64,000 nt of DNA, from positions 4,526,001 through 4,590,000 of the forward strand of contig NZ_CP066339.1 in NCBI RefSeq assembly GCF_016406125.1. The letters are read 5' to 3'. Below are positions 544-32,626 of the stretch, piece after piece. The notes beneath the pieces were generated by a model that did no database searches, was not told where the DNA came from, and saw only the letters and a program-made list of their open reading frames with translations. Every line of letters begins with the position of its first letter. The first letter of the stretch is position 1. Origin of the DNA: Alicyclobacillus sp. SO9 (GTDB taxonomy: Bacteria; Bacillota; Bacilli; Alicyclobacillales; Alicyclobacillaceae). The translations under genes and the position numbers were made by a program.

Positions 544-3255
544 TTGTCATCTCCGGAACCTGTCCGACTCCCCATTACCTACAACAAGTGGAATGATGCA
601 TTGTTTGACTACTTCTTTGCAACGGCTTCTCACAAAATCATCTACTTGTATACGAACGAGCGCACCATTATTCAGATCGGCCAAAAACTAGGTCTTCCGG
701 AAGACGAGTGTCTACCCTCATTTACTTATTGTGTTAGATCGTACGTAAACGATATAGCCCAATTGTTTCGTCTGACACACCATCGAGGCATGAAATGGTA
801 TAGACAGGGTGCTGTTGGACATCCGCCATTCCTCGCAGTGCTCGCTTTGACTGTGCTTGCTGCCACCAAAATGGAATCAGACGCCGAAGAGCACATTGGC
901 GGCGGTAATTACTATCATAGGCTACGTGAACTTCTTGAGACAGCCGATAGGAGCGGCATGCCTTTAGGATTTAAGGACTGCATGCAACTTTGGGATATCC
1001 TGTTAGCATGGCAAAAGGGTAATGACGGGCAATATGGCTTTACGTTTAGTTTCACGTTTTCAAGCATTCCGTATTGTGGATACCCAAGATCGCAGTGTCT
1101 TATTAGAGATACGGAACGTGGATTACTTAACGAATTCTTTATTTGGGCGCAATATGAATCCGATTCAGAGCTAGAACATGACTCTGTAAAAGCCAACCTC
1201 GAGGAATATCTTTCTGCGAGGTCCTGCCGCTTAAGCCGATGGTTTTTCCACAACACAAAGGGCATCAAAGAGGCAATTGTTCACATGGCCATTGAAGAAC
1301 TCAAAAACTGGGAACCGGAGTATGAACCGGATTTACTTCAAACTAGCAGAAAGAATATCCCTCTTTCACTGTTGATAGAACTGGGAAACATGTTTTCCAG
1401 AGAAGCCCGATTTTCACTCATATCAGCACCCGTGCTTACTGAAGACAAAACTCAAAATTTGGCCGATGGTCTGCAGTTCCGTAATGGTTATTATCTCTAC
1501 GAATCACCAAGCCCTAAGGAAATAGCAGAAGGCCTTTTCCTAAACACGGAAACCCAAAAACTAGCGTATAAAGGTAGCGAAGTGATAGTTTTCCGCAAAG
1601 GAAATGATGTTGGGCTGGGAGGATGGCTCAGTAGAAAGGACATGTTACCAGAGCATGAGCATCTAATACTCTACACTTGTCATGAAGCAAGCACGATTGA
1701 GGGGTGGATAAACACAAACTCTTTCAGTAAAGTCTCAAAAATTAGTGCGGGTGTGCCTGATGGCTGGCAACTTACGAAACTTAAACTGTCACGAGATATA
1801 ATTCTTACAGATGATTTTCGGGCCTATGGAATCAAGTCCCGTACCGACCACGTAACCGTAGCCTTTCAAGGTGGATTAAAGATAAAACACAACTGTTGGC
1901 TGTATAATTACCCTCCTGCACTTTCAGTTGTAGCACCTCCAAAGTCAACAATCTCGATCGATGGTAGAGAAATACTCTGCCTTACGGATGGTTCAACATT
2001 GGTACGTTGCGATCATTATCTACAGGAACCCGGAGTTCATCATATAGCCATCTCAGATAAAAGTTACACTATGTATATTTCCATGCCTGAAGAGACTACC
2101 TTCACTCAGCTATCACACAGGCCATACCACAGGTTTACGGTAAATCCCGGAGTTTCTGTTGATATTTCCGGAACGTATTTGTTACACGATCCTTTAGCAC
2201 TTCCAAGCCCTCTAGTCCAAAATGGACCAAAGGAAGTTATTTTGACAGGAGAAGGACGACTCGTTGCCCGATACCCGGAGGAGTCTATCATGCGCTGCGG
2301 ACCCTATATTCGCTCTATTGATCATATTGAAAACATTGAGTCGGTACGTGGTGTATCACCTCTACCGCTTCGCCCGATTGATCATTTAATTGATTACCTT
2401 GCATTAAAACGGGAAGGCAATTGGGACAGTTTCCTTAATGCTCTTGAGTTATGTTTGGGCCAAAGCGATGGACTTACAGCTTATAAGGTGCGCCGATTTT
2501 TCTCCGACTTGGGTATCGTAGAATTTGTCTCAGAGGCAAGATACACTAACAGATTCAAATGGAGAGCACTCCCGCCGACATGTGCTGTGCTTCCTTTAGC
2601 GGACTGCGCAGTGATCTTAACCGGTACTCGCCCGAGAAGTTTCATATCCTTTCTACGCTCTGAAGCGCAAAACATTCAATTACGATGGCATATACCACAA
2701 TCGGATTTCCAGCCTACAACCTTCTACCTAGTCGCAGATCAGATGGACGAGCTCTTCGGATTTTTATTTACTCGCCAGGTAGCTTTCAACCACAGCGAAG
2801 AGTATTTTAGCTACGACCTAATTCGAAGTTTGCCCACGTTGGGAGAATTTCTGAATGCCTCGTTGGACGGAATGGAGCCTTTTAACCCCATTTCCTTTGA
2901 AGGTTGGAACACAATCTTCCATCGTTGGGAACCGGAAACACGTTCCGAACTGACGAGATACAATTTGGGATATGGGCGGAAACTACATCTTTTGAAGCTA
3001 TCGAGCCGAACAGTCCAAGTAAGTCCAGAGGTGGGGAAGCTATATGCCGCCTCAGTCCACAACCAACGTATTTTTTCATACTCGAACTATAGGCTGAGTG
3101 TAAGAAAAGAGTACCTGTTACCCGAGCTCTACTCTAGGGCTTTAGTGCTGTGCAGTGGTTCTTCACCCAAAACGACCTTTGGCAAGACCATTTATCGAAA
3201 CATTCCTGGCGAATTAGCGCTGATAACTGCATTTCGGTTAGGTTTTGAACTCTAA
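544..3255 (+). CDS. Large protein preceding DruE-like helicase (Druantia-III-like companion candidate)
   Basis: This gene encodes about 903 residues with no motif I can name. It is rich in aromatic and charged residues, has no signal peptide and no evident membrane span, and is probably cytoplasmic. I place the start at the TTG at 544 because GGAGGG lies six bases upstream (532-537). An in-frame TTG at 490 has no ribosome site. It ends 13 bp before the helicase gene, so the two form an operon. In Druantia type III a large protein of unknown function (DruH) precedes DruE. Position and size fit that role, but I cannot show homology to DruH from sequence alone. It could instead be a cassette-specific target-recognition subunit. 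Confidence 0.75.
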   Translation: MSSPEPVRLPITYNKWNDALFDYFFATASHKIIYLYTNERTIIQIGQKLGLPEDECLPSFTYCVRSYVNDIAQLFRLTHHRGMKWYRQGAVGHPPFLAVLALTVLAATKMESDAEEHIGGGNYYHRLRELLETADRSGMPLGFKDCMQLWDILLAWQKGNDGQYGFTFSFTFSSIPYCGYPRSQCLIRDTERGLLNEFFIWAQYESDSELEHDSVKANLEEYLSARSCRLSRWFFHNTKGIKEAIVHMAIEELKNWEPEYEPDLLQTSRKNIPLSLLIELGNMFSREARFSLISAPVLTEDKTQNLADGLQFRNGYYLYESPSPKEIAEGLFLNTETQKLAYKGSEVIVFRKGNDVGLGGWLSRKDMLPEHEHLILYTCHEASTIEGWINTNSFSKVSKISAGVPDGWQLTKLKLSRDIILTDDFRAYGIKSRTDHVTVAFQGGLKIKHNCWLYNYPPALSVVAPPKSTISIDGREILCLTDGSTLVRCDHYLQEPGVHHIAISDKSYTMYISMPEETTFTQLSHRPYHRFTVNPGVSVDISGTYLLHDPLALPSPLVQNGPKEVILTGEGRLVARYPEESIMRCGPYIRSIDHIENIESVRGVSPLPLRPIDHLIDYLALKREGNWDSFLNALELCLGQSDGLTAYKVRRFFSDLGIVEFVSEARYTNRFKWRALPPTCAVLPLADCAVILTGTRPRSFISFLRSEAQNIQLRWHIPQSDFQPTTFYLVADQMDELFGFLFTRQVAFNHSEEYFSYDLIRSLPTLGEFLNASLDGMEPFNPISFEGWNTIFHRWEPETRSELTRYNLGYGRKLHLLKLSSRTVQVSPEVGKLYAASVHNQRIFSYSNYRLSVRKEYLLPELYSRALVLCSGSSPKTTFGKTIYRNIPGELALITAFRLGFEL

Positions 3256-3268
3256 TACATAACAGGCG

Positions 3269-6200
3269 GTGACAAGTTTGGAGGATGTTTGGGGGATTTT
3301 TAGCACATTGCAGGAGATGTACGTGAAGTACATGGATAGCCCGTTCGCTCTCTCGAGTTCCGAGCTTATCAAAGAACGGAGGGCGCTCCTTGAAACTGAA
3401 GGCATTATTCACCAAGTTCCTTATGTCGAGGCAATGCCATCATTCGTGAGTTCTGGGAAAACCCTAAAATCAGCTTGCTCGAATATCGGGTGGGCGACTG
3501 ACTTTGCTGAGTTTGCTAACAAGGGATTATTTGATGAATCCTTTCGAATGCATCAACACCAGTTTGAAGCCTTTCGCCGAGTTCTTGAGTCAAAACGAAA
3601 CGTCGTTGTAACTTCAGGCACCGGTTCCGGAAAGACAGAAAGTTTTCTGCTGCCTCTCATTGCTTCGATATTGGATGAATCAATAGGATGGTCCCAGCCC
3701 AGTGCTAAAGCCGATCCATGGTGGGAAATCGGTTCTTCTTGGAAAGGGGAGAGAAATAACGAGAGGCGCCCCGCAGCGATCCGGGGCCTAATCCTATATC
3801 CACTTAATGCGCTTGTAGAGGACCAACTAACTCGGCTGCGTAAAGCACTAGACAGCGATGATGCTCGTGAATGGCTTGATGACCACCGCCATGGGAATCG
3901 TATTTATTTTGGGAGATATACAGGAAAAACTCCTGTCTCTGGAAGACAAAACTCCCAAAAACGTAGGAAGATGCGCAGTATCATGCTCAATATGAAGGAC
4001 ACCGAGGAAGGCCTTCGCACACGCTACGCAGACCTAAAAGAGGGATTGCACGATACCGTAGATACCGGAGAGATAGACTCAGAGCTTGCGTCTAAGATTA
4101 ACAAGGCACTTGGAGAAGAGCTTCTGGAGAAGGGTCAGACAATGACAAATGCCCAGGCCTCGGAGCTAAGTAAAAGATTGGACAGTCAACTGGATGAAAA
4201 CTTATCATTTATACCACAAACTAGTGGTGCAGAAATGGTATCAAGATGGGATATGCAAGAGACTCCTCCTGACATCTTTATCACAAACTTCAGTATGCTC
4301 AACATTATTCTCACCAGAATGATAGAACAAAATATCTTTGAGCAGACCAAGGCCTGGTTGGCCGAGGATAGTTCCCACACCTTTTTCCTTGTGCTTGACG
4401 AACTACATACATATCGTGGAACAGCCGGTACTGAGGTTTCGTATGTCCTACGTGCATTACTCCACCGCCTTGGTCTCTCACCAGATAGCCCCCAATTGAG
4501 AATCATTGCAACAAGTGCTTCGTTGGATGAAACTGGAAAACAATTTCTTGAGGATTTCTTCGGCGTATCTGCAGAGCAGTTTGATGTGTTAGCTGGAGAG
4601 AGGGAAACTGCCGACAAATATCACAATAGAAACACGTATCAAGATCACGCTCCTGCGTTCGAAGATTTCTACAATAGAGCTACACAGTCTACCCACATTG
4701 ACACGGCACTAGAACAACTGTGTAAAGATCTGGACTTATACTCTAGCGAGCCAAACCTGTACCAGAAGACATTTGATGCTCTCAATCAGTCCGGTGCGAT
4801 TCACGCATTTGTCAAACAATGCGACCGCCCTCGTTCGATTTTAGATTTAGCAGAACAGATGTTTCATTCAAGAAACCCCAGTGCCGTTGCAGGCTTCTTG
4901 AGTGCATTGGGAGAAGCCAGAGATAAGGGACAGGTCGCAGTTCCGTTGCGTGGTCATCTCTTCTTCCGTAATTTTCAGGGACTATGGGCCTGCTCAAATC
5001 CACATTGCGACGCTGTGGAACCAAAGTATCGATTTGAGGGGCGTACCATAGGAAAGCTTTATACTCAACCTCAGGTTGCCTGTAGCTGTGGGGGGCGTGT
5101 CCTAGATTTTTACTATTGCCAAAACTGTGGTGATGCATTTTTAGGTGGTTACAAGACTGTAAACGACTCAGAGGAGGATACATTCGTATTAAGTGCAGAT
5201 TTCCCTGAACTTGAGCAACTACCAGACAAAATGCCTGCCACGAAAAAGTACGCCGATTATGCAGTGTATTGGCCTGGCATGCAGATACATAGCGATACAG
5301 CGGAATGGAAGAGAAACGGTGGTGCTGTACGTTTTTCGTGGGAGAAAGCATCATTCAATCCTTTCTTCGGTAGTATTCGAACAGACGCACTACGAAATCC
5401 AACTGGGCACTGGTTCCAAATACATGGCCAAGATACAGACAAAATACCTGCATTCCCTACGAGATGCTGTGGTTGCGGCGACGACTGGGAAATCCATTTA
5501 CCCGGAGTGCCAATTGAAAGCACGGTACGAACACGTTCACCAATTCGAGGTCAACGAACAGGTTTCGATAAGGTCAGTCAAGTTCTGATCGATAGTCTTA
5601 TGCGTGAGTTTACTGGCTCGGACAATTCGAAAATAGTATTATTTTCCGACAGCAGACAGGACGCCGCCAAACTCTCTGTGAAATTTGAACAAGGACATTA
5701 CCTAGACCTACTCCGTCGTGTTGTGTCATCGGCTGCACACGAGGATAGGGCTCCTGTACTCTCGTGGATAAAATTAGTTCGTGGAGAGCCTCTTGATGAG
5801 CAAGAGCAGCGACTGGCAGAACAGTATAGACTCTCCTCGTCAACCTACAGACTCGCTCGTGATATCGAGGACTATTTTAAAGGATATCTACCCGACGAAG
5901 TTCGTCAGGACGTTGACAACCTTGTGCGACAAGTATCTCTTCCCCCCTCACTTCGTGAATTGTGGGATAAAATCGAGCGTCGTATTGTAAACTTGGGCAT
6001 GAATCCGGGGGGACCATACAAATCACTTCAGAATTTCAAAGCTGGACAGTCTTTACATTCGTGGACTGACCTATACACCTTTAACCATTCATCTATAGTC
6101 CCCGCTCCCGAAACGGTAGACGAGAGGCAACACCACAATGAACTAAAGAAGAGTCTACAAGAAAAAATCGTTGCAGACACCTTATTCTCCCAGAGAAAAC

Positions 6201-8869
6201 GAGACTTTGAGTCTTTAGCACTTGGTACAATGATTACTGACCCGGACATGTCTGTTGAAGACGCATTGGGTAAATCTTCTGATTTTTGGAGAGGATTATT
6301 TGATAGCTCGGTACGTATTCTTGGCGCCAACCGCAGGTATAGTGGTGGGCGAAAAGCTCCCTCAGACTTTGCACCTAAGGTGCTTAAAGATTATTGGTCT
6401 GCTGTTTCAAGAAAACATAGTTTGGATGAGTCGGCTATCCTTTCGACGATGGAATCCATGTTTCGACGAAGTTCGGGAATTCAGCAATATATCATTCAAA
6501 TCGATAAAATTCATATTGTACCGTATGATGAAGGCACCCCCGTGTATGCATGTGTTAAATGTCACAGAGTTCATCTACACCCGTCATGCGACGTTTGCAC
6601 GGACTGTTTTTCGGAACTGGTCCAAAAACAGTTAAAGTCATCGGATGTCAACGACTACTATCGATCACTTGCGGACGACATCCGAACTGAAACCAGGATC
6701 CATACTGAGGAATTAACTGGCCAAACTGATGCGGAAGAGGCATCTAGGCGTCAGAAATTGTTTCAAGGCATCTTCGACGACAGTGATATTCCCCTGGTGG
6801 ATGAAATTGATGTCTTGAGCGTTACAACAACCATGGAGGCAGGAATTGACATAGGTTCCTTGAAGATCGTCGCTATGTCAAATATGCCGCCCCAGCGATT
6901 TAACTATCAGCAACGGGTTGGACGATGTGGACGTCGTGGAACACCGCTATCTGTCAGTCTTACCATGTGTAGAGGACGGAGCCACGATGACTGGTACTTT
7001 GATAACCTAGATCGAATTACGGGTGATCCCCCTCCGCAGCCGTACATTGACGTTAATTCGGTAAAAGTTTTCAAACGAGTCCTCGTTAAAGAGATTCTTT
7101 ATCATGCATACAGAGCTACTGGATTGGAAAACGAAGTACAAGAAGGCCTTAGCGTACATGGGGATTTCGGGAGGCGTGAAGATTGGAGCACATATAAAGA
7201 GAGAATACAGAAATACTTACAATCTCAGGAAGGGATGCAGTTTGCAAAAGAAGTGATTACAGCTCTCTCGTTTCGGGTCCATCTTTCCGTACACGACCAA
7301 CAAGCGTTATTTGCCTACGTGACAAACGGCGAAGTGGCAGGTGAAATTTCCCAAATAAGTAATGATATTCGCTACTCTCACATAGTACCGCTGAGTGAAT
7401 GCCTTGCAACTGCCGGATTACTGCCCATGTTCGGGTTTCCAACCCGATTGCGCCTTTTACATCACCAACCTCGCACAGAACGTTCATTTGTTGGTGCTTT
7501 GGAAAAAGGTACCGTTGATCGAGATTTAGAAATTGCAATTGGAGAATATGCACCTGGCTCTGAAGTCGTCAAGGAAAAAGCTAAGCACCGGGCTGTGGGT
7601 GTGGCCCACTACACCCCCTTGGGGTCGAAGATCGAAGCCGAACCAGAGCCCTTAGGCCAGCTTCGGACAATTGCATTGTGCAAGCACTGTCAGATACTCT
7701 ATGATGGGGCTCCGGACTCGCTACCCGATCGATGTCCGTCCTGCGGAGCTTCGAAAATGAGTAATGGCGTTTTTAGACATATTCCAATTTCTGAGCCAAT
7801 GGGTTTTCGCTCTGATTGGAATGAACAAGATTTTACGGAGGAATTTGAATGGGTGTCTCGGGGATCCTCACCACGGTTGGCACAAAAACCCCCTTCAGCC
7901 GTTACTCAGGTATTTAACACTCAGTTTTACAGTCAAGAGGGTGACATCTATACCTTAAACGACAATACTGGAGAACTTTTCACTTTTTATAAAGCAAAAA
8001 ATCCCTTTGATGGTTGGATTGAAAAGAACAGTGTTGGTGTAAATGGGTTTAACCCTGCACTTACTAGCACGTCGGTTGACACAGCGCTAGCATCCATTAA
8101 AAATACGGAAGTTTTGGTTCTAACTCCGGCAACATTACAACCAGGTATGACATTCAATCCCGCTATCCTGGGCGTTAGAGCTGCGCTCTATTCTTTTGGC
8201 TTCCTGTTTCGGCGAATTGCATCCGACCTTTTGGACGTTGATGCTGATGAGTTACAAGTTGGATTTAGGTCTGTAGTTTCATCAGGTAACACGGTTGGAC
8301 AGATATTTCTTGCGGATCGCTTAATTAACGGTGCCGGTTATTCAAGATATCTTGGCCAGCCAGAAGTGCTATCAAAGTTGTTAAGCGATTTGTCTGGTCC
8401 GTTGATGGGAGCTCCAAATCTTAAACACCATGATTGTGATTCTTCTTGTTATGAATGTTTGAGAACGTATGAAAATATGTCTTACCACGGTTTGCTAGAT
8501 TGGAGACTGGCGTTTGATGTTGCCAATGTTTTGACTGACCCAACATTCGTTCCAGGGATTGGTGAAAGGTGGGGCGGTCTTGTACGGCGATCCGCAAAAG
8601 GCATGGTATCCAACTATCCTGGGATGCAGGAAAAGTGGTTCGGCCAAGTACCTGCTGTAATTTTTCCAGGCGAAAACATTGTAGCACTGTTTGGTCATCC
8701 CTTATGGAACATTCATGAAGATTTCCTCAATGAACCGATGAGTGAGGCGACCGTTACGGCTGAACTGGAATTTCCTGCTGCCAAGGTAATTCGATACAAT
8801 ATATTCGATCTTATAAGAAGGCCCGTCTGGATCATCAATGACATTTTGAGTCAGGAGTATGCCCAATGA
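3269..8869 (+). CDS. DruE-like giant DEAD/DEAH helicase with DUF1998 domain
   Basis: This gene encodes 1866 residues of a superfamily 2 helicase. Visible motifs in order are Walker A (GTGSGKT, near residue 118), VLDELH as motif II (near 374), ATSAS as motif III, FSDSRQDAAKLS starting the second lobe (near 790), TTTMEAGIDIG as motif V, and QQRVGRCGRRG as motif VI (near 1215). Several Cys pairs suggest zinc ribbons: CSNPHC and CQNC near 575-620, CVKCH with CDVCTDC near 1095, and CKHC with CPSC near 1475. The C-terminus has the DUF1998 signature, HHDCDSSCYECLRTYEN. Length and layout match DruE of Druantia systems; DrmA/DrmB of DISARM are relatives. It starts at GTG and its stop overlaps the nuclease ATG. 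The likely role is ATP-driven DNA translocation in antiphage defence. Confidence 0.9.
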   Translation: MTSLEDVWGIFSTLQEMYVKYMDSPFALSSSELIKERRALLETEGIIHQVPYVEAMPSFVSSGKTLKSACSNIGWATDFAEFANKGLFDESFRMHQHQFEAFRRVLESKRNVVVTSGTGSGKTESFLLPLIASILDESIGWSQPSAKADPWWEIGSSWKGERNNERRPAAIRGLILYPLNALVEDQLTRLRKALDSDDAREWLDDHRHGNRIYFGRYTGKTPVSGRQNSQKRRKMRSIMLNMKDTEEGLRTRYADLKEGLHDTVDTGEIDSELASKINKALGEELLEKGQTMTNAQASELSKRLDSQLDENLSFIPQTSGAEMVSRWDMQETPPDIFITNFSMLNIILTRMIEQNIFEQTKAWLAEDSSHTFFLVLDELHTYRGTAGTEVSYVLRALLHRLGLSPDSPQLRIIATSASLDETGKQFLEDFFGVSAEQFDVLAGERETADKYHNRNTYQDHAPAFEDFYNRATQSTHIDTALEQLCKDLDLYSSEPNLYQKTFDALNQSGAIHAFVKQCDRPRSILDLAEQMFHSRNPSAVAGFLSALGEARDKGQVAVPLRGHLFFRNFQGLWACSNPHCDAVEPKYRFEGRTIGKLYTQPQVACSCGGRVLDFYYCQNCGDAFLGGYKTVNDSEEDTFVLSADFPELEQLPDKMPATKKYADYAVYWPGMQIHSDTAEWKRNGGAVRFSWEKASFNPFFGSIRTDALRNPTGHWFQIHGQDTDKIPAFPTRCCGCGDDWEIHLPGVPIESTVRTRSPIRGQRTGFDKVSQVLIDSLMREFTGSDNSKIVLFSDSRQDAAKLSVKFEQGHYLDLLRRVVSSAAHEDRAPVLSWIKLVRGEPLDEQEQRLAEQYRLSSSTYRLARDIEDYFKGYLPDEVRQDVDNLVRQVSLPPSLRELWDKIERRIVNLGMNPGGPYKSLQNFKAGQSLHSWTDLYTFNHSSIVPAPETVDERQHHNELKKSLQEKIVADTLFSQRKRDFESLALGTMITDPDMSVEDALGKSSDFWRGLFDSSVRILGANRRYSGGRKAPSDFAPKVLKDYWSAVSRKHSLDESAILSTMESMFRRSSGIQQYIIQIDKIHIVPYDEGTPVYACVKCHRVHLHPSCDVCTDCFSELVQKQLKSSDVNDYYRSLADDIRTETRIHTEELTGQTDAEEASRRQKLFQGIFDDSDIPLVDEIDVLSVTTTMEAGIDIGSLKIVAMSNMPPQRFNYQQRVGRCGRRGTPLSVSLTMCRGRSHDDWYFDNLDRITGDPPPQPYIDVNSVKVFKRVLVKEILYHAYRATGLENEVQEGLSVHGDFGRREDWSTYKERIQKYLQSQEGMQFAKEVITALSFRVHLSVHDQQALFAYVTNGEVAGEISQISNDIRYSHIVPLSECLATAGLLPMFGFPTRLRLLHHQPRTERSFVGALEKGTVDRDLEIAIGEYAPGSEVVKEKAKHRAVGVAHYTPLGSKIEAEPEPLGQLRTIALCKHCQILYDGAPDSLPDRCPSCGASKMSNGVFRHIPISEPMGFRSDWNEQDFTEEFEWVSRGSSPRLAQKPPSAVTQVFNTQFYSQEGDIYTLNDNTGELFTFYKAKNPFDGWIEKNSVGVNGFNPALTSTSVDTALASIKNTEVLVLTPATLQPGMTFNPAILGVRAALYSFGFLFRRIASDLLDVDADELQVGFRSVVSSGNTVGQIFLADRLINGAGYSRYLGQPEVLSKLLSDLSGPLMGAPNLKHHDCDSSCYECLRTYENMSYHGLLDWRLAFDVANVLTDPTFVPGIGERWGGLVRRSAKGMVSNYPGMQEKWFGQVPAVIFPGENIVALFGHPLWNIHEDFLNEPMSEATVTAELEFPAAKVIRYNIFDLIRRPVWIINDILSQEYAQ

Positions 8870-9984
8870 AAATTCCAGAATGGCCACACCCTAGTCGATT
8901 AGAAAAAACATCACCGGCGGGTTTTGAATCGCTGCTGTCGTGTCCTCTTAAGGGGTTTCTGGACACAGTTCCATCTCTCCCCGCACATCGTGTCACACAC
9001 CCAAAGGCGTTGATCGGGATCGTGTGTCACGACATGTTACGACGAGCAAGTGTCGGGGCGTACGACCATATAGATCCAAGTGAAATAAAGCAAGTGCTCC
9101 GTGAACAATTTCACCAAAAATGCCAACACCTGCTTCTCAGTTCGGTAAACGCTAGTCAATCTCAACGCTACGGTTCACCCGAAAATTGGCCTGGATATAA
9201 CATCAGGTACTATAGACTACAAGCCTCAGCGCTTCAGACATTTGAACGCCGCAGCACTAATACAAACCGTTCAGATATGTCAAATGTCGATATACTCGCA
9301 GAACGGGAGTTGAAATCCTCTAACGGAAGACTGGTTGGCAGGCCTGATCGTATGATTTACCGAGAGCATGGAGATGCAATCATTGAGGACTATAAGACTG
9401 GAGAGATTTACGATGGTAACGAACTAAGAGCGCACATAAGGAGACAAATGTTACTCTACACCTTTCTTTGTGTCGAATCTTTTGATGTTCATAACGTGAC
9501 GTTCCGAGTTATTCCCATGAACGGAGTTGTTTATGAAGAGAACGTGGATCTTGCAGAGGCCGTTCGATTTGGCGACAGCGTTTTTGACACTCTTGATAGT
9601 ATCAATACATCACTGCTTGAAATTTCGAGAGGAGAGAAACTTTTCAATGAACTTGCACAACCTTCAGCCGAATCTTGTGCTTTTTGTCCGTATAGGAATC
9701 GATGTGACACATATTGGTCAAGCATGACAACTTCAAATGGGTCGTTCCTCGATGTAGAAGGTAGAATTGATAGTGTTAGTTCCTCCTCGCACTACACGGA
9801 GATAAGACTTACTTCCACAAGCAGTGGGCAGTCATTTGTAATAAGTGCTCCTATCACCTTTTACGACTCCCATCTAGAACCTTCTCAGAGGATACGATGT
9901 ATCCAATTACGTAAGGTGGGGGAAAGTTCTACAGATATCTTTACTGAGGTATACGAAGACACAACCATATGGTGGAGTCTGTAG
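8866..9984 (+). CDS. Cas4/RecB-like PD-(D/E)XK nuclease with probable Fe-S cluster
   Basis: This gene encodes 372 residues of the PDDEXK_1 (Cas4/AddB/RecB) nuclease superfamily. The core is visible as GRPDR (catalytic Asp, near 162), EDYKTG (D/E-x-K, near 175) and RRQMLLY (motif with Gln, near 194). The N-terminal LLSCPLKGF Cys, together with CAFCPYRNRC near 273-282, gives the four-Cys pattern that binds a 4Fe-4S cluster in Cas4 and AddB. The ATG overlaps the helicase stop (ATGA) and follows AGGAG, so it is translationally coupled to the helicase. It probably supplies DNA cleavage for the helicase. A dedicated Cas4-like nuclease is not a component I know from canonical Druantia type III. Confidence 0.87.
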   Translation: MKIPEWPHPSRLEKTSPAGFESLLSCPLKGFLDTVPSLPAHRVTHPKALIGIVCHDMLRRASVGAYDHIDPSEIKQVLREQFHQKCQHLLLSSVNASQSQRYGSPENWPGYNIRYYRLQASALQTFERRSTNTNRSDMSNVDILAERELKSSNGRLVGRPDRMIYREHGDAIIEDYKTGEIYDGNELRAHIRRQMLLYTFLCVESFDVHNVTFRVIPMNGVVYEENVDLAEAVRFGDSVFDTLDSINTSLLEISRGEKLFNELAQPSAESCAFCPYRNRCDTYWSSMTTSNGSFLDVEGRIDSVSSSSHYTEIRLTSTSSGQSFVISAPITFYDSHLEPSQRIRCIQLRKVGESSTDIFTEVYEDTTIWWSL

Positions 9985-10151: not shown

Positions 10152-11090
10152 CTACTTTGATTCGTAGTTCTCGGACCTATTCAAGAGTTCCAAAAATTTA
10201 TCTTCATCCTCACCCAAGACATACTTTCTTGCACTTAGCAGAACGTCTACAAAGAGTTCATGATTAGCCAAGTCGTCCAAATCATACTTCTTCAGCATGA
10301 TTGTAAATGCTCTCTGCAAAACTTGAACCAGTGGCCGCAGCACTCCTTGACTCATTTTATGTAACAATTGAGGATAATGTAGTTCTCGATCACCTAATCC
10401 CAGAGTCACAGGAAGACCCAAATGCTCTTCGATGTGTTCTAACAGGGCACAGAACCCACCGTCACAATCATGAAACCGTGGCAATGGAATGGCTGGAAAT
10501 CTGCTGTAATATTGAAAATTGATTTCTGTCAGTTGTTTGGCTGCAGGCGTCCCGGCACAAACCACGGAAATATTCCCAAGATTGGTCAGACTCTTGATAG
10601 CCTCCATCGCTTCAATCTGTTTTACGCTTCGAGAAGTTAGAATGTAATCCATTTCATCTAGGATGACCATTTCAACACGTTGCTGCTCGATTAGTTTGAG
10701 TGCTTGTTGTTTAACGTCGCCGATCTTTGAGCCTCCCGGTTGCGGAGCACCCAAGGCTTTCACTATCTGATGGTAAAATTCGTACTTAGTAAAGGGTTCA
10801 GGTAGATCCGTATATACTACCGGACGAATGTCATACTGTGTGCCTTCTTCATCCACATCGACATATCCTATATTCTCTTTCGCCTTGACATATTTACGTA
10901 ACAGAGTTGATTTTCCAACGCCCGATTCACCATAGATAAACAAGTGCCTTGGAGTAATCATGTCACGGTCCGTACCTTGTTCCGGCCGGAGAGAATCTAA
11001 TTCATCCCAAATTTCACGATACCTTGGGTGAGCAATATTAAGGATCTTCACTCGTTGAAGAAGAGCGGCCTTGGCTTCGACGTCATTCAT
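10152..11090 (-). CDS. tnsC: TnsC/TniB-like AAA ATPase of outer Tn7-like element
   Basis: This gene encodes 312 residues of an AAA+ transposition regulator of the TniB/TnsC type. The Walker A is GESGVGKST (near 52) and the Walker B is MVILDEMD (near 140). The sensor-1 region reads SVVCAGTP. The protein is short, closer to TniB than to the 555-residue TnsC of Tn7. It links target selection to TnsAB and normally works with a TniQ protein, but no tniQ follows here. Downstream lies only a convergent gap of 167 bp and then the nuclease gene. The ATG overlaps the tnsB stop (ATGA) after a GGAAG site, so it is the third gene of the tnsABC operon. Confidence 0.9.
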   Translation of the reverse strand: MNDVEAKAALLQRVKILNIAHPRYREIWDELDSLRPEQGTDRDMITPRHLFIYGESGVGKSTLLRKYVKAKENIGYVDVDEEGTQYDIRPVVYTDLPEPFTKYEFYHQIVKALGAPQPGGSKIGDVKQQALKLIEQQRVEMVILDEMDYILTSRSVKQIEAMEAIKSLTNLGNISVVCAGTPAAKQLTEINFQYYSRFPAIPLPRFHDCDGGFCALLEHIEEHLGLPVTLGLGDRELHYPQLLHKMSQGVLRPLVQVLQRAFTIMLKKYDLDDLANHELFVDVLLSARKYVLGEDEDKFLELLNRSENYESK

Positions 11091-13181
11091 GCTTCCTCAA
11101 CTTCCTTTTTCCTTTGCACTGACTTCTTTACGGCATCTGCAAGTTGCTCCAACGACGGTGTATATTCTAATGGTTTACCGGATTGCGGCTGTCCAACCTT
11201 AAGTTCCATATTAGCTCGCTTCGCCATTTGTCGGGCCTTTCTGCCTCGTTTGAGTTTCTGTTGAACTCGTTGTTGCAGTGCCAATTTTGCATTTCTAACT
11301 GACTTTGTACCTGGAATCCTATTTGCCTTTTCGTTTGCTTCCTCTCTTGATTCCTCACAAATCAGCTTCCACAAATATGCATTCATCCCTTTTAACTCGT
11401 CGGCACTAGGTAACACCGCTGGAACCTCTACGTATTCAGCGGAGTCCGACGGTTGAATGTAGATACATGAGATGTCATCGATGTCGTACTTTACTTTGTA
11501 TTTGGTGGAACGTGGACCAATCAGGTGAGACAGCTTGTCCAACTTATACAGTCGGTTATTCAAACGTACCCCGTCACGGGTATATGGTTTCATCACGACC
11601 GGCAGTAGCTCAAGACTATATGTTTCTTTCTCTTCTAAAGTTACAAAATCCGGATATCCAACCTTATTGATTCCATCCACCCACCTTGTGATTGGTCGGT
11701 CAGCGCTGGATGGGAGTCCCCGGTGAGGACTCATTTGGTATTGGTCAACAATATACATTGTCAGAAGTTCACGGATGTCTTCGAGTGTAAATACAGCTTC
11801 CTCATCAGGCTTGTATTCGCCAAGAGTCGATACGCTGCTCTTCCGAGTCCCATTCAGCCTGTGTATCAGTTTTGAATTTAATGTCCCAAATAGTCGCTCA
11901 ATGGCGGCTCCATACTCCGGCGTCTTTCTCGGTCGGTATCGTACATTAGACCTGAGGGTTTCATTGATCATACGTCTCACGGCGATACTGCGAAAATCCT
12001 TGCCGTTATCGAGTAAAAAGACAGTAGGTATTCCGAACACCTCCCATTCGTTAAAGAGGTCGTATTTTTCTTTAACCCTCTTGAAAAAAACTCCTTGTTG
12101 AATAGCCTTTCGCACCACGTTTGCAGATGGTGGTTCAAAAGAAACATACATGCACCATACCATCCGGCTAAATACGTCAATTCCCAACGTAATCCAAGGA
12201 CGTCCTATGACTAACCCTGACTCGTCAATAACATCCATATCCAGTTGCGTATGGTCTATTTCAACAATGTGAAGCGGATATTGTGCTTCTTCGTTAGAGA
12301 ACCCTCGAATGAGATCATCATATTTCTTTGCAGCTTTATTGCCATCACGCATTCGCACTCTGATTTGCTCATCAATGCGATCCAGCAACTTCACGTTTTG
12401 GCTCCTCGATGCCCCGTCGAAAACATCGAAGTGCAACAGATTCATTAAATGCCTCTTTCGTCATGCGCTTGAGATTGAGGTATTCCTGCTCAATAACTTC
12501 CTTGACAATAGGTATGTACTTCTCATCTATTCGGACATCAAGAATCTGAAGAACCTCATCGGGCTTTTTAGGATGGCAGATCACTAACTGCTTGTTATCG
12601 CTGCGGAACAGATAGCCACTACCTGCTCTGCTGATAAGTCCTTCCTCGCCACGTTGTGCTTCACTTTCCGCCTGTCTGTATGCTGCCAACAATCGTTTGA
12701 TAGTCCTGACCGAGGTTCCTTTAGCCCCGTCGCCATCCTCACTAACTATCGAATATCTTCGTGAGATTCTTCGTATTAACTCCTCTTGAGTCAATTCATC
12801 AAGAGTCTGTCCCTCAGAAAGGTAATGACTGTGGTACATCATAAACTCATGCATTGCCCTTATATCATGTCGCTTTACTCGTTCCAAGAGAAGCAAGGGT
12901 CTAATCAGTTTGAGACGACCCGATACCTTGTGACGCTGCGCCTCGGGTAGGGTGTCCAGAAGAGACATGAATTTGGCATTATCCTTTTTGATCTCCCTTA
13001 GCATTGCTTTACCCGCTTTGAACGAGGGGTTGGTAACCAACTCGACAAAGTTAATTTCAATCGATTCGCCGTCTCCTTCTACTCGCTTGATCACAACGTT
13101 TGGTGGGGCAATGGCAAGAATCACGTACTTTCGGCCAAAATAGATAAGTTCCGAGTTCAGTTTAAGTTCATTAAAGGTCAT
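11087..13181 (-). pseudogene. tnsB: TnsB-like DDE transposase of outer element, split by a frameshift
   Basis: Two overlapping frames together encode a normal TnsB of about 700 residues. The 5' part (13,181-12,372) holds the N-terminal DNA-binding helices. The 3' part (to 11,087) holds the integrase core with catalytic Asp in IDHTQLD, Asp in LLDNGKDF and Glu in AAIERLFGTL. The frames differ by one base. The best join is the run TTTT at 12,396-12,399 (AAAA in the coding sense). Removing one A reads EEPNVKLLDRIDEQ straight through, which looks like a TnsB linker. This implies a one-base insertion, or a sequencing error. The first ATG overlaps the tnsA stop and follows GGAGG. Without a repair the outer element lacks its strand-transfer enzyme. 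Confidence 0.82.
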
Positions 13182-13924
13182 ATTTCCTCCCTCAGTCCTA
13201 TTGGTAAGAATGTCCCGCCAAACTCACAAGAAACTTTCACAGTTGAGTGTTCGGTGATGGGTTTCTTTATATTGACCCACAAGGCTCCCGTGGCGATGAG
13301 GTGGTAAATAACAGGCAACACAAGTAAAGGGTCATACTGTGGTATCAAACTCCGAGAGAGTTCAACGATGGAGGTTTGTTCGATAAACTGAAGTTTTGCC
13401 ATGAGCTGCGGGACACAGTTTGCATACCATTTGCGGCTCTTTGTGAATCCAGTCAGGAGTTCAATATTCCTTAAAATGAGTTTCGGCAGCGCCCTTGGGA
13501 AAATAACCTTATAGTCCCAACCACGGGATGTTGCGTAGTCTGCACAAACCTTGTCTATCAGTCTTTGCTTCTCGTTTGAGTCATGGGGAAAGGCTTTGGA
13601 TTGATAAAGCTGAGGAATAGAGCCTTCACGAAAGACGAGGACATCGGGTACATGAACCCAGCTTTTAAGGTTTCCGAGGTCATCTCTGTAAGGTACGTGA
13701 ATTCGTAGCGGTTGAACGTAGTATCGAATAGTATGATGATCCAGCTCGAGTAGGGAATACAGTGCCCATTCGACAAGTGACTCATACTCCGCAACGGCAT
13801 CCATTTTGTGACTGTGAAAGGCCCCTATGACATGAGGACGCTGTTTACTATCCCTGTTATCAACCTTCCTCTTCGGTGCAAATTCAATATCTTCTTGGTC
13901 CCACGCCTTGTTTGCCCAATTCAT
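13178..13924 (-). CDS. tnsA: TnsA-like endonuclease of outer Tn7-like element
   Basis: This gene encodes 248 residues. The N-terminal half carries the restriction-like fold of TnsA: Glu in YESLVEW (near 49), Asp in HVPDVLVF (near 94) and Lys in YQSK (near 108). The C-terminal half has the winged-helix-like part that contacts TnsC in Tn7. TnsA cuts the 5' ends of the transposon so that it leaves by cut and paste. It is the first gene of the operon, with AAGGAGGGG before the ATG, and its stop overlaps the tnsB ATG. It reads inward from the outer right end, as in Tn7. Confidence 0.88.
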   Translation of the reverse strand: MNWANKAWDQEDIEFAPKRKVDNRDSKQRPHVIGAFHSHKMDAVAEYESLVEWALYSLLELDHHTIRYYVQPLRIHVPYRDDLGNLKSWVHVPDVLVFREGSIPQLYQSKAFPHDSNEKQRLIDKVCADYATSRGWDYKVIFPRALPKLILRNIELLTGFTKSRKWYANCVPQLMAKLQFIEQTSIVELSRSLIPQYDPLLVLPVIYHLIATGALWVNIKKPITEHSTVKVSCEFGGTFLPIGLREEI

Positions 13925-14751: not shown

Positions 14752-14911
14752 TGTAGCATTACAATCAAGTTGTTACTTATAATTCCTTGTAGGTCTTAGG
14801 ATTTTGAGGATCGGTTCATTTCAAATTTACAATTCAGGTTGTTACCTTCAGCAGTTTCCGAGAATCAAGATCCTAAATCAGATGATTATTTATTACAATC
14901 AAGTTGTTACC
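14752..14911 (+). repeat. Left end of inner transposon with three spaced TnsB sites
   Basis: Three copies of TTACAATCAAGTTGTTACC or a close variant lie at 14,759-14,777, 14,827-14,846 and 14,893-14,911, about 67 bp apart. Wide spacing at the left and tight packing at the right is the Tn7 pattern. The innermost copy overlaps the 3' end of the OLD/TOPRIM gene and supplies its stop codon. Confidence 0.9.
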
Positions 14912-16830
14912 TTTTCTAACTGGGTATTAGACATATTAGTGTCTGTTCTCTCTTCGAGTAAATTTGCGCGCTTGATAAATGTAATTAATTCCTCAATTTT
15001 GTCACTCAAATCATGAGCCACGTAAGATTCCTCAGTCCAATGATCAGAAACAAGCTTGGCGGTTTTTGTTTTTTTACTTGCAAGATCGGAGGCAATTTTT
15101 TTATGGCCTGTCGTATCTAGGCAAGTACCATCCGCAAATGTGTATTGTGCTGCGCAGATCTCATCAAACGAATCAAACTGTCCAAATAAAAAATCGAAGT
15201 CGGAGATTAAGGATAAGTCCTTTCTCTCACCATTAATTTCCAAATAGTGTCGTGACATTTCTTCTCCGAACATAACTTTATAAAGAATATCACCTGGAAT
15301 ATAGTTCTCAATTTCGCGTCCTTGTGTAATCCAAAGTTTTACATAGTCAGATAACTGAGCTCCAGTCTCGGTTGCGCTTTGATTTAAATGGGTTTGTAGT
15401 CTTTGAACCCTTTGCTTTAGCGACTCGTGTTCTGAATCTAGATCAGAATCACATACAACTACAGCATATCGACTTGTTTTTAGAATATCTATGTACTCTT
15501 CCTCACCAAGAAAATCGTATGAAGATAGGTTGGAACCACCATACATCATAAACGTGTAGTGTTTTCCTTCAATCAGCTCAGAAGACCGACACGTTATCCA
15601 TCTTTTAATGTACGTCCGATCACTTGGCCCTTCAACCCAAATTACGACGTTGCTCTGAAGCAGTTGTGATGGTCTGATCCCTAGTTCATCGAGCAGTCGG
15701 AACTTCTGCACGACCTCGTGGCAAGGCGATATAGTTGTGTACTTATCCTCCTTTCGTGAAACCCGATATACACTCCATCCGTCGTTGACCTGGTCCACAA
15801 GGACCGACGAATGTGTACTTATGAACATACAGTGGTTGGGGAAATTCTGCTCTATTACCCGAACTAATTGAATGACTGCCTCTGGATGTAGGTTACTCTC
15901 CGGTTCTTCTATAAACACATTTAACGATTTGTCTCTGTTAAGGAAGAGGTACGCTAATAACATAATCATTTGTGCAACACCTGTACCGAGATGTGACAAG
16001 TCAGCCGATATTCTTTTTCCTCCCCTTGTTATGTAAAAGCGCAACTCCGAGTCTTTTGGATCAAGCTGGAACATCGGTTCATCTAAGATGCTTTTGAGCC
16101 AGCGTTCTAGCATTTCCTTAAAGTCAGCCCACTCGTCATCTTGGTGATTTCTAATTTCTATTATTTGACGAACGATATCGCTACCGTCAAAATCACTCTC
16201 ACCTGCATCCCATGACGATCTTGCGAAGTGCCGCACGGGGTCTACGAACACTAGACTGTGCAGAAATGCTAACCAATAATCGTAGGTATCATTCGGGTAT
16301 TGCATTCCCTCTTTGGGGTTTTCATACTCCATGGTATCTGGATTTAGTAATTTAGGCGTGCCCCCATCGGTTGCTTTAAACTCTTCAAGCAATGGTATGT
16401 TGCCATATAGTACAGAGAGGCATGACAGCTTACTTGAACAGTTATGGCGGGCTTGAAGAACTATTGGTACTACCGATCTATGAAGGGTCGGTTCTCTACC
16501 TGACCATACATGGGGTAATTCATCTAGTGCAATTTTGGAAACGATTTCGCATCCATCAAACTTCCATGTGTTCTGGATGCTAAACGCCTCTGGGATGGAG
16601 TTCAAACTACCATAGTTATCGAAGGGGCTGCTTATCTGATGCTGATCCACTTTATCTTTGAAATGTCTAAAAGTTATCTCCCGCAAATGGTATAAATACT
16701 TAAAAAGGTTAGATTTTCCAGTATTGTTCGGTCCTATGATTAAATTGATCCGTTTCAAGTCACGCAAATGAACCCCTTCTGTATCGGAGAACGAACGCCA
16801 ACCGTTTAGCTCAAGTTCCTTTATACGCAT
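14899..16830 (-). CDS. OLD-family ATPase-TOPRIM nuclease
   Basis: This gene encodes about 643 residues. The N-terminus is an ABC/SMC-like ATPase with Walker A GPNNTGKS (near 34), a signature-like region LSHLGTGVAQ, Walker B FIEEPESNLHP (near 310) and the His switch FISTHSS. The C-terminus is a TOPRIM nuclease: Glu in VEGPSD (near 405), Asp pair in VVCDSDLDSE (near 460) and Glu in GREIENYI. OLD proteins, including GajA of Gabija, are DNA nucleases in phage defence. Its ATG overlaps the HerA stop by one base. The last codons, KVTT and TGA, are part of the transposon's left-end TnsB site. The partner is HerA rather than the UvrD-like helicase of Gabija. Confidence 0.9.
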   Translation of the reverse strand: MRIKELELNGWRSFSDTEGVHLRDLKRINLIIGPNNTGKSNLFKYLYHLREITFRHFKDKVDQHQISSPFDNYGSLNSIPEAFSIQNTWKFDGCEIVSKIALDELPHVWSGREPTLHRSVVPIVLQARHNCSSKLSCLSVLYGNIPLLEEFKATDGGTPKLLNPDTMEYENPKEGMQYPNDTYDYWLAFLHSLVFVDPVRHFARSSWDAGESDFDGSDIVRQIIEIRNHQDDEWADFKEMLERWLKSILDEPMFQLDPKDSELRFYITRGGKRISADLSHLGTGVAQMIMLLAYLFLNRDKSLNVFIEEPESNLHPEAVIQLVRVIEQNFPNHCMFISTHSSVLVDQVNDGWSVYRVSRKEDKYTTISPCHEVVQKFRLLDELGIRPSQLLQSNVVIWVEGPSDRTYIKRWITCRSSELIEGKHYTFMMYGGSNLSSYDFLGEEEYIDILKTSRYAVVVCDSDLDSEHESLKQRVQRLQTHLNQSATETGAQLSDYVKLWITQGREIENYIPGDILYKVMFGEEMSRHYLEINGERKDLSLISDFDFLFGQFDSFDEICAAQYTFADGTCLDTTGHKKIASDLASKKTKTAKLVSDHWTEESYVAHDLSDKIEELITFIKRANLLEERTDTNMSNTQLEKVTT

Positions 16831-18467
16831 CAATCATCATCCCTTTGAACATTCGACTTGTTGCGAGTAGTCCAAGATCTTATGAGGCGTTCAATGGAGT
16901 ATCCGTTCGGCGGGCCGTCGTTCCAGGATTTGTGAAATCTAACATCATTGCTCCTTGGACGAGGGGCAGGCTCATCAAAGCGGATTTTTCCTGGTAGAAC
17001 GACTGCATCTCCCGTAACTAAAGCCTCCCCATCCCTGAGACTCGATAGCGAATCTGCTTGCTCACCGAGCATATCAGGAAGTAATCTCCTGATTTTGTTT
17101 TGATCTAAGTCATTAGTCAAACGTAAGGTGATAAATGTCCCGCACTGGGACAAAACTGTCGATGATACATTGGACGGACGTTGTGAAACTACCATAAGAC
17201 TTAGTCCATACTTACGACCCTCTTTAGCAACCTTCTCAACCCGTTCCAGACATAAAGAATATACTGATGACGAGTCATCAGGAATGTATGTATGGGCCTC
17301 TTCTAACACCAGTGCTATCGGTAATGATTCAGGATCCAAGTCCCAGTATCTGTAGTCAAAACATAATCGGGTTAAGACTCCAACACAGATAGTGCGGATT
17401 TCAGCAGGCAGACCACTAAGGTCGAGCACAGATACGTATGTGTTGTCATCTGCGTTGAGCCCTAGGAGCGAGCGAAAATAATCTGTAAGACTCAGTTGCG
17501 AACTACTGTCCCGTTTTAAGAACCTGAACCTATTGTCTTCATTAAGAGCCTGTAACTTAAGCAGTATTTTATTATACGGATCTTGCTTTGATTCAGACTT
17601 CTCACTATCTTTCTTAGCTTTGATCCTCCCGATTAATGAGTCCATGTCAAAGTACACAGGGCTATCTACCGAGATGCTTTGTTGAATGGTTTCATCCGTA
17701 ACGTTATCCTTCTTTAGTGCTTCGATAAATTCCTTAATATACATCTTCTGCGTACCACCGGCTTCGGGATAATATATACCAATGAACTCTTCAAAGTCTA
17801 AAAACCAGTAGGGGAGTGAAAACTTTTCCCAGGGAACTACATTTGTCTTGTCCTCCCACTCTCCAGAAAAAGCGCTTGAGTACTCATTATGAATGTCAAA
17901 GAAAATCAGTCTTGGTTGAGGATAATCTCGTAATATTGACTGCGCAATTCGAGCTACCGTGCTACTTTTCCCACTGCCAGTAGTCCCCATAATGGCAACA
18001 TGTCGCCCAAGTAGTCTATCAAGTTCAAGAAAAGCGTCGCCCGCCCCGCTCATTGAGCGTCTACCGACCTTAAAGTACCTTGCATCCGCATTTGATTCCT
18101 CATGTATCCCTAACAACCTGTTGACTTGATCACCATTTAGAAAGTACACGTCGCAAGTGATGGGGGGATACTTACTGACACCTCGCGTAAACTTCTCTTG
18201 TTCATTGACACTGCCAACTATTGCAAGTTCCACAATTCTGTTCTCACGGTGTCCGCCATCACGTGTCTCCACTTCTTCGATGAACACTCTTGTCACGGTG
18301 CAAATTGTGTCTCCATGAAAACTACCACAATTGACGAAAGCCCCGATTTCTGCGTGTAGCGCTGAATCATGACTCCCTACTGACAACCGTTCAGCCTTAA
18401 CGACAATTTTCCCTCCGTCAACGCTACTAACCATTCCAAACTTCAGTTCGTTACGTCGCAAATCCAT
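16830..18467 (-). CDS. HerA/FtsK-type ATPase, DNA translocase
   Basis: This gene encodes 545 residues of the HerA (DUF87) family. An N-terminal beta-barrel-like HAS domain spans roughly 1-130. Walker A is GTTGSGKSST (near 165) and Walker B is LVLEEAHTYI (near 392). The segment KEGRKYGLSLMVVSQRPS that follows is highly typical of HerA, with the arginine finger region in RLTNDLDQ. HerA forms hexameric rings that pump DNA, usually with a nuclease partner such as NurA, DUF4297 or SIR2 proteins. Here the partner is the adjoining OLD/TOPRIM protein. A clear AAAGGAGCC ribosome site precedes the ATG. It is probably one two-gene defence operon. Confidence 0.92.
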   Translation of the reverse strand: MDLRRNELKFGMVSSVDGGKIVVKAERLSVGSHDSALHAEIGAFVNCGSFHGDTICTVTRVFIEEVETRDGGHRENRIVELAIVGSVNEQEKFTRGVSKYPPITCDVYFLNGDQVNRLLGIHEESNADARYFKVGRRSMSGAGDAFLELDRLLGRHVAIMGTTGSGKSSTVARIAQSILRDYPQPRLIFFDIHNEYSSAFSGEWEDKTNVVPWEKFSLPYWFLDFEEFIGIYYPEAGGTQKMYIKEFIEALKKDNVTDETIQQSISVDSPVYFDMDSLIGRIKAKKDSEKSESKQDPYNKILLKLQALNEDNRFRFLKRDSSSQLSLTDYFRSLLGLNADDNTYVSVLDLSGLPAEIRTICVGVLTRLCFDYRYWDLDPESLPIALVLEEAHTYIPDDSSSVYSLCLERVEKVAKEGRKYGLSLMVVSQRPSNVSSTVLSQCGTFITLRLTNDLDQNKIRRLLPDMLGEQADSLSSLRDGEALVTGDAVVLPGKIRFDEPAPRPRSNDVRFHKSWNDGPPNGYSIERLIRSWTTRNKSNVQRDDD

Positions 18468-20196: not shown

Positions 20197-20549
20197 AGAC
20201 GGGTACGGCTGAACAAACGAGGGGCATGTTCTAAGCCGTTAACAGGATCTGAGATTGCATGTTCATGCAGTCTGCAAGGCACGCCTCTTGCGTCGCAAAT
20301 GGGCAGTTTAGTCGCAGATGAAGCGTTAAAAAATATAACACATCGTTACATTTGAACTGGGCAGATACTTTCTTCGATGGTACAGAATTTCCCCTTCTAG
20401 AAAATGTGGAGCTTAATTTACAAAAGACGTCAAACACATCATAATGAAGCGAAAGCGCGTGCGGCTCAGCAGTACATAACGATAAATTAGGAACGGCTCA
20501 AATAAAGGGAAGAATTGTGGACTCTAGACTTGGATTGGAGGTGAATGGA

Positions 20550-21563: not shown

Positions 21564-21580
21564 GGCGGTGCTGTTATAGC

Positions 21581-24594: not shown

Positions 24595-24801
24595 TTACGT
24601 TAACGCCTGCTCGGCAAATAATGCCGGATTCCTAACCTTCTTTTGTTCATAGCTTCGTTTGTGATTTGAAATCTTGGCGTCCACCCAGCCAGTGACGTTC
24701 TCCCGGTTTCTCTGTAACAGGCTCCATAATGAAAGGATCAGAATTAGGTGGATGACTCCCCACCAAAAATAGAGGTTCCATGAACGACTTTCGACCTTCA
24801 C
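24595..24801 (-). CDS. Small predicted membrane protein coupled to tniQ
   Basis: This open frame has 68 codons with one hydrophobic stretch (about 13-28, WWGVIHLILILSLWSL) and a basic C-terminal half. Its GTG overlaps the tniQ stop (GTGA), which suggests translational coupling. No family is known to me. It may be a real last gene of the tns operon or a chance frame. Confidence 0.4.
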   Translation of the reverse strand: MKVESRSWNLYFWWGVIHLILILSLWSLLQRNRENVTGWVDAKISNHKRSYEQKKVRNPALFAEQALT

Positions 24802-32425: not shown

Positions 32426-32626
32426 TTTTTCACCTCCATATAGGCAAATATCATACAAATCACCCCTTTCTATTGACTCACATGCCCATCTCCGCAAACC
32501 AGTAATGAGTTCAAGGAGTAACGGGGTATACCACATTTTCCGACGCTCACTCAGCGCTTAAAACCTACGCCAACTTCGTTTTTATCGAAAATAGACGATT
32601 TTAATTTCACGTTATAATTTGCTCAT

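Follow-up and report, generated by a model that had tools for sequence, protein, structure and literature searches.

Druantia systems share the helicase DruE and are divided into types by the proteins that accompany it. Type II comprises DruM, DruF, DruG, and DruE, type III comprises DruH and DruE, and type IV comprises DruE, DruF, and DruL. Type IV was named in the PADLOC paper, whose sections on this type report it from 11 phyla and define it by the lack of DruM and DruG, both required in type II (Payne et al., 2021, PMC8565338). Type III is reported, in the portions of one study that treat it, to sense phage proteins (PMC13192584). The DruE proteins of types I and II carry an inactivated Vsr nuclease and that of type III an active PLD domain, as described in those parts of a further study that cover these domains, which concern types I-III and do not discuss type IV (Bell et al., PMC12458937). 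No description of a type IV mechanism was found in the openly licensed literature, supplements aside. Positions 544-9984 of a 64,000-nucleotide stretch of the Alicyclobacillus sp. SO9 genome (contig NZ_CP066339.1, positions 4,526,001 to 4,590,000; hereafter the window) carry a three-gene operon that, judged by its profile matches, is a Druantia type IV system in a fused, nuclease-bearing form. The favored reading, given a probability of about 0.72, is that a DruF-DruL fusion (DruFL) serves as adaptor or sensor, DruE as motor, and the nuclease DruK as cutter, with an upstream methyltransferase marking self.

The operon consists of druFL (544-3255), druE (3269-8869), and druK (8866-9984), all undamaged open reading frames (ORFs) on the forward strand, and the three-gene arrangement of the original prediction is borne out. 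Thirteen nucleotides separate the druFL stop from the druE start, and the ATG of druK (8866) overlaps the druE stop (8869); ORF starts were placed by the longest frame, so that overlaps are possibly overstated. A GGAGGG read directly at 532-537 on the forward strand, six bases 5' of the TTG start of druFL, is a likely ribosome-binding site. Downstream, the interval from druK to the convergent tnsC gene (11090-10152) contains no ORF of at least 80 amino acids.

Assignment to type IV follows from matches of the first two proteins to DruF, DruL, and DruE. The druFL product (P0001, 903 amino acids) matches DruF4 of PADLOC-DB 2.0 at its N-terminus (residues 11-292, E 3.2e-38) and DruL4 at its C-terminus (residues 671-893, E 1.2e-11). 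Iterated profiles built from the relatives described below, with the window among the profile rows, extend these regions to residues 24-598 and 628-921 of a 921-residue ORF that starts at 490, placing the DruF part at 559-2283 (E 3e-119) and the DruL part, which has a winged-helix-like start, at 2371-3252 (E 1e-73), both on the forward strand. The druE product (P0002, 1866 amino acids, GTG start) belongs to the YprA helicase family, within the Druantia IV/II branch, and has Pfam DEAD and Helicase_C matches; among PADLOC models it scores 1785 bits against DruE4 (E 0), 1668 against DruE2, 710 against DruE1, and 403 against DruE3. The original prediction had regarded the first protein as an unknown in the place of DruH, within a type III-like layout, and had proposed a profile search of it against the DruH, DrmB, and Dpd families. 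DruF and DruL were matched instead. P0001 has 13 PADLOC matches at E <= 1, none of them to a DruH model; no Pfam match was obtained at the same threshold, and no match to a housekeeping family was found. A type III system with DruH as the first protein would share the order of a large protein followed by DruE, and is ruled out by the PADLOC comparison, given the absence of a DruH match and the DruE3 score of 403 bits vs. 1785 for DruE4. Both types have a YprA-family DruE; that of type III is reported to have a PLD domain, in the parts of the two sources that describe it (PMC13192584; PMC12458937), and none was found by Pfam in P0002.

The window shares with described type IV systems the three proteins and the helicase subfamily, and with most relatives the order F, L, E; it differs from described type IV systems by the joining of DruF and DruL in a single chain and by the attached DruK. 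It also has a DruM-like methyltransferase 1.5 kb upstream, although type IV is defined as lacking DruM. Type II is likewise close, with homologous DruF and DruE (hence the high DruE2 score) and a cytosine methyltransferase nearby, but the window has DruL, and no DruG model is among the PADLOC matches listed for the operon proteins, the methyltransferase, and a neighboring Argonaute. The outline of DISARM would be similar if the methyltransferase belongs to the system, as both would then combine a helicase, a DUF1998 module, a methyltransferase, and a nuclease; membership in DISARM was rejected, with the DUF1998/MZB module lying inside P0002, a nuclease of the PD-(D/E)XK (PDDEXK_1) rather than the PLD family, and a DrmA match of only 33 bits. 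Membership in the Dpd system was rejected as well (DpdJ 65 bits vs. an NCBIfam cut-off of 800). The suggestion that the operon is an unrecognized Druantia/DISARM relative bringing its own nuclease therefore holds for the Druantia family and for the nuclease, but not for DISARM, and the system is not unrecognized, being already type IV with DruK already a model name in PADLOC-DB 2.0. No openly licensed paper was found that places DruK alongside Druantia, and DruL was found only in the PADLOC paper (PMC8565338).

Relatives were collected from one genome per species for 84,980 species, scanned with a seven-row DruE alignment. The best 80 loci were kept, as a sample rather than a census (best-segment identity 32-51%), and eight further DruE loci from plasmid records gave 88 loci. 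A tree of DruE was built with FastTree from 88 rows; locus L091, which has no open DruE frame above 1400 amino acids, was dropped from the tree and from the DruK and methyltransferase counts. DruF was detected in 77 of the 88 loci, DruL in 73, both in 69, and at least one of the two in 81, and the association of DruF and DruL with this DruE helicase is thus beyond chance. Three of the seven loci with neither protein have almost no upstream sequence (L019, L075, L084). Where both are present they are usually two genes just 5' of druE, in the order F, L, E. A single DruF-DruL chain is found in the window and its five nearest relatives (L012-L015 and L073, from Paenibacillus, Bacillus, and Neobacillus), and also in L010, L011, L081, and L091. 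Fusion requires three changes on the DruE tree, where the window and these five nearest relatives form a clade with full local support. Separately, a cassette of a GmrSD/DUF262 gene, a small gene, and a C5 methyltransferase recurs beside Druantia loci (L012:2969-5910, L105:15877-19602, L009:13932-16758); the small gene is annotated as HEPN-like in L009.

The motor motifs of DruE are well preserved, in agreement with its original description as a DruE-type DUF1998 helicase. The Walker A motif GTGSGKT (residues 117-123; 3617-3637) is 99-100% conserved across the 88 rows and motif II, DELH (residues 377-380; 4397-4408), 97-100%. Across the helicase motifs examined, conservation is 94-100% except at C1220, where 91% of rows have alanine. 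An MZB/DUF1998 zinc-binding region follows at residues 1646-1731 (8204-8461; Pfam MZB E 8.4e-4, below the cut-off), with C1723, C1727, and C1730 kept in 99-100% of the 87 rows filled there. Relatives of known structure include 9wae (595 bits, named 'Helicase' by its depositors) and 9tu7 (172 bits), and P0002 has matches in 156 plasmids and two phages. From residue 1768 to the end, no alignment column filled in at least 44 of 88 rows has aspartate or glutamate in half of its rows. This is consistent with the Vsr domains being inactivated in types I and II, as covered in the relevant parts of that study (PMC12458937). Because conserved acidic residues are missing from this C-terminal domain, DruE would be a motor without a cutter of its own and DruK probably the cutter where present. 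Overall, 85-100% of rows retain H1810, P1811, F1846, and R1850, as do at least 80% of rows in the DruK-bearing and DruK-lacking groups alike. The conservation of H1810 (99%) and R1850 (91%) shows that this domain is functional in some way, and it is conceivable that it holds a degenerate active site, a point against the favored reading.

The third gene, druK, has an ATG start and encodes an AddB/Cas4-like PD-(D/E)XK nuclease of 372 amino acids (P0003) that matches PADLOC DruK (E 8.7e-19) and Pfam PDDEXK_1 (E 6.5e-17, 62.7 bits vs. a cut-off of 22). Across 20 aligned DruK rows the active-site motifs GRPD...DYK span residues 158-177 (9337-9396), with EDYK at 174-177; G51, H55, E146, G158, D161, Q194, and Y198 are invariant, and K177 is kept in at least 90% of rows (L068 differs). 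Also invariant are C26 and the three cysteines of a CxxC-x5-C motif (C271, C274, and C280; 9676-9705), and these four residues probably bind an iron-sulfur (Fe-S) cluster, in line with the coupled Fe-S nuclease that had been predicted. The same signature is found in Cas4 and in the nuclease domains of Dna2 and AddAB/AdnAB, and the best solved-structure matches of the DruK profile are helicase-nucleases: 6ppu and 7sjr, which we take to be AdnAB, and Dna2 (5eaw). DruK differs from the last two groups in being a separate protein paired with a helicase rather than fused to one. Its partner is a superfamily 2 helicase, whereas the Dna2 and AddAB/AdnAB nucleases are fused to superfamily 1 helicases.

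Co-occurrence of the genes had been set beforehand as a test of the original prediction, and together with the frequency of DruF and DruL noted above, the distribution of DruK shows that the genes do co-occur. With an iterated profile, DruK was found no more than 700 nucleotides after DruE in 24 of 79 genome loci in addition to the window, or in 24 of the 67 genome loci with at least 900 nucleotides of sequence 3' of DruE, the 12 loci with less being left out of the fraction. Spacing between the two genes runs from -196 to +15 nucleotides, apart from L021 and L087 (over 300 nucleotides). Presence of DruK changes 13 times on the DruE tree in a scattered pattern, as expected of an exchangeable effector. 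When the DruK profile was searched independently of DruE at E <= 1e-12, six of 398 genomes of the phylum had matches, namely that of the window, L095, and four with UvrD-helicase/PDDEXK fusions. In L095 (33-2145) a gene for a DruK/Cas4-like nuclease of 391 amino acids overlaps the 3' end of a gene matching the DruE profile. On viral contigs, DruE led to 27 loci, in three of which a DruK-like gene directly follows druE: L105 encodes a DruFL fusion, DruE, and a DruK-like protein, and L108 and L110, with DruD and DruE1 as neighbors, are type-I-like systems with a DruK-like gene. A search of plasmids with P0003 found none.

Other observations weigh against a general role for DruK. It is absent from 43 of the 67 testable genome loci, from all eight plasmid loci, and from four of the six members of the fused clade (L013, L014, L015, L073), and it is therefore an optional component that some type IV systems do without; loci lacking it must cut DNA by other means or not cut at all. 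The L095 nuclease is a weak case, matching Cas4 (E 8e-10) slightly better than DruK (1e-9). It is conceivable, if unlikely, that DruK is a loose passenger or a repair nuclease and that DruFL and DruE alone carry the defense. Its absence from many relatives, close ones included, would fit such a role, as would the fragmentary or split DruK genes in three of the 24 loci (L021, L051, L087), which show that loss is possible. Against such a role stand the overlap or near-contact of druK with druE across distant phyla, the conserved active site, and the search of 398 genomes at E <= 1e-12, which found no stand-alone DruK gene except next to a DruE-like one. In Streptomyces loci lacking DruK, druE is directly followed by an AAA ATPase gene plus an HNH-like gene (L033:15432-17950) or by a gene for a 580-residue protein without a Pfam match (L054:15430-17172); these genes possibly stand in the place of DruK as other effectors.

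A C5 cytosine methyltransferase gene (L002:13881-15077 in the numbering of the extended locus) lies outside the window on the strand of the operon, 1.5 kb 5' of druFL. Such genes cluster upstream of the operon in the 87 relatives, with 20 within 0-1.5 kb (110 kb of sequence) vs. 8 farther away (349 kb; binomial p 1.6e-7). Same-strand C5 genes also track DruK, being present in 9 of 20 DruK-bearing vs. 1 of 46 DruK-lacking rows; this count includes the window, set by hand to have both genes, and omits DruK-less rows with under 900 nucleotides after DruE (among them the methyltransferase-bearing L018) and rows with under 1.5 kb upstream. Methyltransferase (M), DruF, DruL, DruE, and DruK genes are contiguous in that order, or nearly so, in L038, L041, L052, L072, and L077; L024 has the same order with a 688-nucleotide gap after M, and L060 has M, F, E, and K, with DruL seen only in a looser search. 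Over all 87 relatives, the link between methyltransferase and DruK gives Fisher p values of 2e-4 (same strand) and 0.013 (any C5 gene within 3 kb) when the tree is disregarded. Correction for kinship leaves about 3.3 independent pairs in agreement and none in conflict (median p 0.25), too few for significance, and the association is therefore suggestive and not significant. The link was the least expected result of the analysis, and no report of it, of DruF-DruL fusion, or of repeated DruK attachment was found in the openly licensed literature, supplements aside.

These observations permit a tentative alternative that casts Druantia IV as a form of restriction-modification driven by a helicase, in which the DruM-like methyltransferase would shield host DNA and DruFL, DruE, and DruK would attack unmarked DNA in the style of DISARM. 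Besides the clustering, the covariation with DruK, and the M-F-L-E-K runs, it draws on the match of the window's methyltransferase to DruM2 (505 bits). Against it stand the small number of independent pairs, the 11 of 20 DruK-bearing rows without a same-strand methyltransferase neighbor, and a C5 gene somewhere in the examined flanks of 23 of 63 loci without DruK vs. 16 of 24 with it, part of which general crowding of defense genes may explain. The sensing of phage proteins reported for type III, in the sections noted above, also speaks against it (PMC13192584). A broader version is about as tentative: a branch of Druantia would consist of helicase-powered restriction-modification systems in which DruM marks self, DruF and DruL read or gate the substrate, and a DruE that has lost its nuclease passes DNA to an exchangeable Dna2/AddAB-like DruK, repeatedly gained and lost in type IV/II and type-I-like systems. 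For the window itself, the self-marking role that the favored reading assigns to the methyltransferase is weakened by two further points: the protein scores higher against the generic type II model MTase_II (555 bits) than against DruM2 in PADLOC, and no gene is recognized in the 1.5 kb separating it from druFL. Among the relatives, only 10 of the 20 nearby C5 genes share the strand of the operon. The intervening 1.5 kb had no match better than E 0.088 to genes of the loci, its own overlapping ORF aside, in a search confined to those loci.

What DruFL contributes was approached through predicted structures. AlphaFold2 modeled the whole protein with a mean pLDDT of 88.4 and a pTM of 0.65, and the DruL part alone with 94.6 and 0.91. 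In these models DruF opens with a domain made up mainly of helices, which ends near residue 254, and continues with beta-rich domains, one of them Ig-like (433-514); DruL starts with a winged helix for which VIA gave weak matches to the folds of RosR, MarR, and Fur (Z 5-6.7). The DruFL profile found nothing among PDB sequences at E <= 1; Foldseek returned no match at E <= 0.001 for the whole model or the DruL part against PDB, nor for the DruL part against viral structures. All VIA matches, which mainly probed residues 433-514 of the whole model and residues 1-147 of the DruL part, have Z <= 7.4, and those of the Ig-like stretch and winged helix are read as common arrangements only, with no claim to a new fold. 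The winged helix and the reported role of DruH in type III prompt the guess that DruFL is a sensor or gate that binds DNA; that neither the DruF nor the DruL fold matched anything convincingly keeps it a guess and counts against this part of the favored reading. The protein is also patchily distributed, with matches in two plasmids and none found in phages; a search of 299 genomes in its class found it in one, the genome it comes from.

Under the favored reading the operon would act against phages through a complex with divided labor. DruFL would bind DNA as adaptor or sensor and admit DruE to invading, probably replicating, DNA. DruE would use the energy of ATP to travel on the DNA and pull it open, and DruK, as a relative of the Dna2 and AddAB/AdnAB nuclease domains, would cut the exposed strand, since DruE appears to lack a working nuclease of its own. 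The upstream cytosine methyltransferase would probably label host DNA as self.

The surroundings of the operon are rich in Tn7-like genes. On its right, and convergent with it, lie a tnsC/TniB gene (10152-11090, reverse strand; Pfam TniB above the cut-off), tnsB in two overlapping frames (11087-12445 and 12372-13181, reverse strand; Mu-transpos_C above and rve below the Pfam cut-off), and tnsA (13178-13924, reverse strand; TnsA-like N-terminal domain, below the cut-off). The 269-residue frame of tnsB has no Pfam match and was named by position, and the split (11087-13181) is due to gene damage, an error in the sequence, or a frameshift. On the other side is a TniQ gene (L002:5816-7606, reverse strand; Pfam TniQ), adjoined by two ORFs (L002:3722-5383, with no Pfam match, and 5337-5819) that are candidate relatives by look only. 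Between tnsABC and TniQ, together with the operon and the methyltransferase, are a SIR2-Argonaute gene (L002:9746-12973; PADLOC pAgo 1243 bits) and a Shedu SduA-like gene (L002:8780-9652; Pfam). A second Tn7-like set on the reverse strand (24798-32536) includes TnsA- (31613-32536), TnsB-, TnsC-, TnsD-, and TniQ-like genes; TnsD plus TniQ (25891-27825) and AAA/TniB (27761-29461) were recognized by Pfam and the others named by reading the ORFs. A pair encoding a HerA helicase and an ATPase, the latter with ATPase-Toprim as best PADLOC match (14899-18467), and an IetA-IetS pair (20517-24007) are defense candidates between the two sets. Three direct repeats of AAAGTTGTATACT at 33103, 33170, and 33225 (span 33103-33245), upstream of the second tnsA-like gene, are perhaps TnsB-binding sites at one end of the second element; no further copies with up to five mismatches were found on either strand of a 120-kb stretch, nor were the borders of the element. 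The locus is read, from this arrangement of genes, as defense cargo in or between Tn7-like elements. Both this company of defense genes and the patchy distribution of P0001 speak for the favored reading.

Adjacency to tnsABC could also mean that the operon is a repair or maintenance module of a Tn7-like element rather than a defense system. This is very improbable, as relatives are carried by plasmids, other genomes, and viral contigs alike, and the family is a listed anti-phage system. Beside the TniQ-like genes there is a short CRISPR-like array (L002 ~2780-3150, or ~-13220 to -12850 relative to the window), in which a repeat of about 30 bases with the core CCCCACGCGGGAGCGTGG is present six times at a spacing of 65-69 bases. 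Farther left on the same contig (L092, 8514-14753), ORFs read as another, apparently degraded Tn7-like set, and the region may therefore hold stacked elements.

The locus is a compact set of one fused putative adaptor, one helicase, and one nuclease. The linkage of a separate nuclease, and perhaps of a methyltransferase, to Druantia type IV suggests how a Druantia helicase without a nuclease of its own could destroy DNA and yet spare the host.

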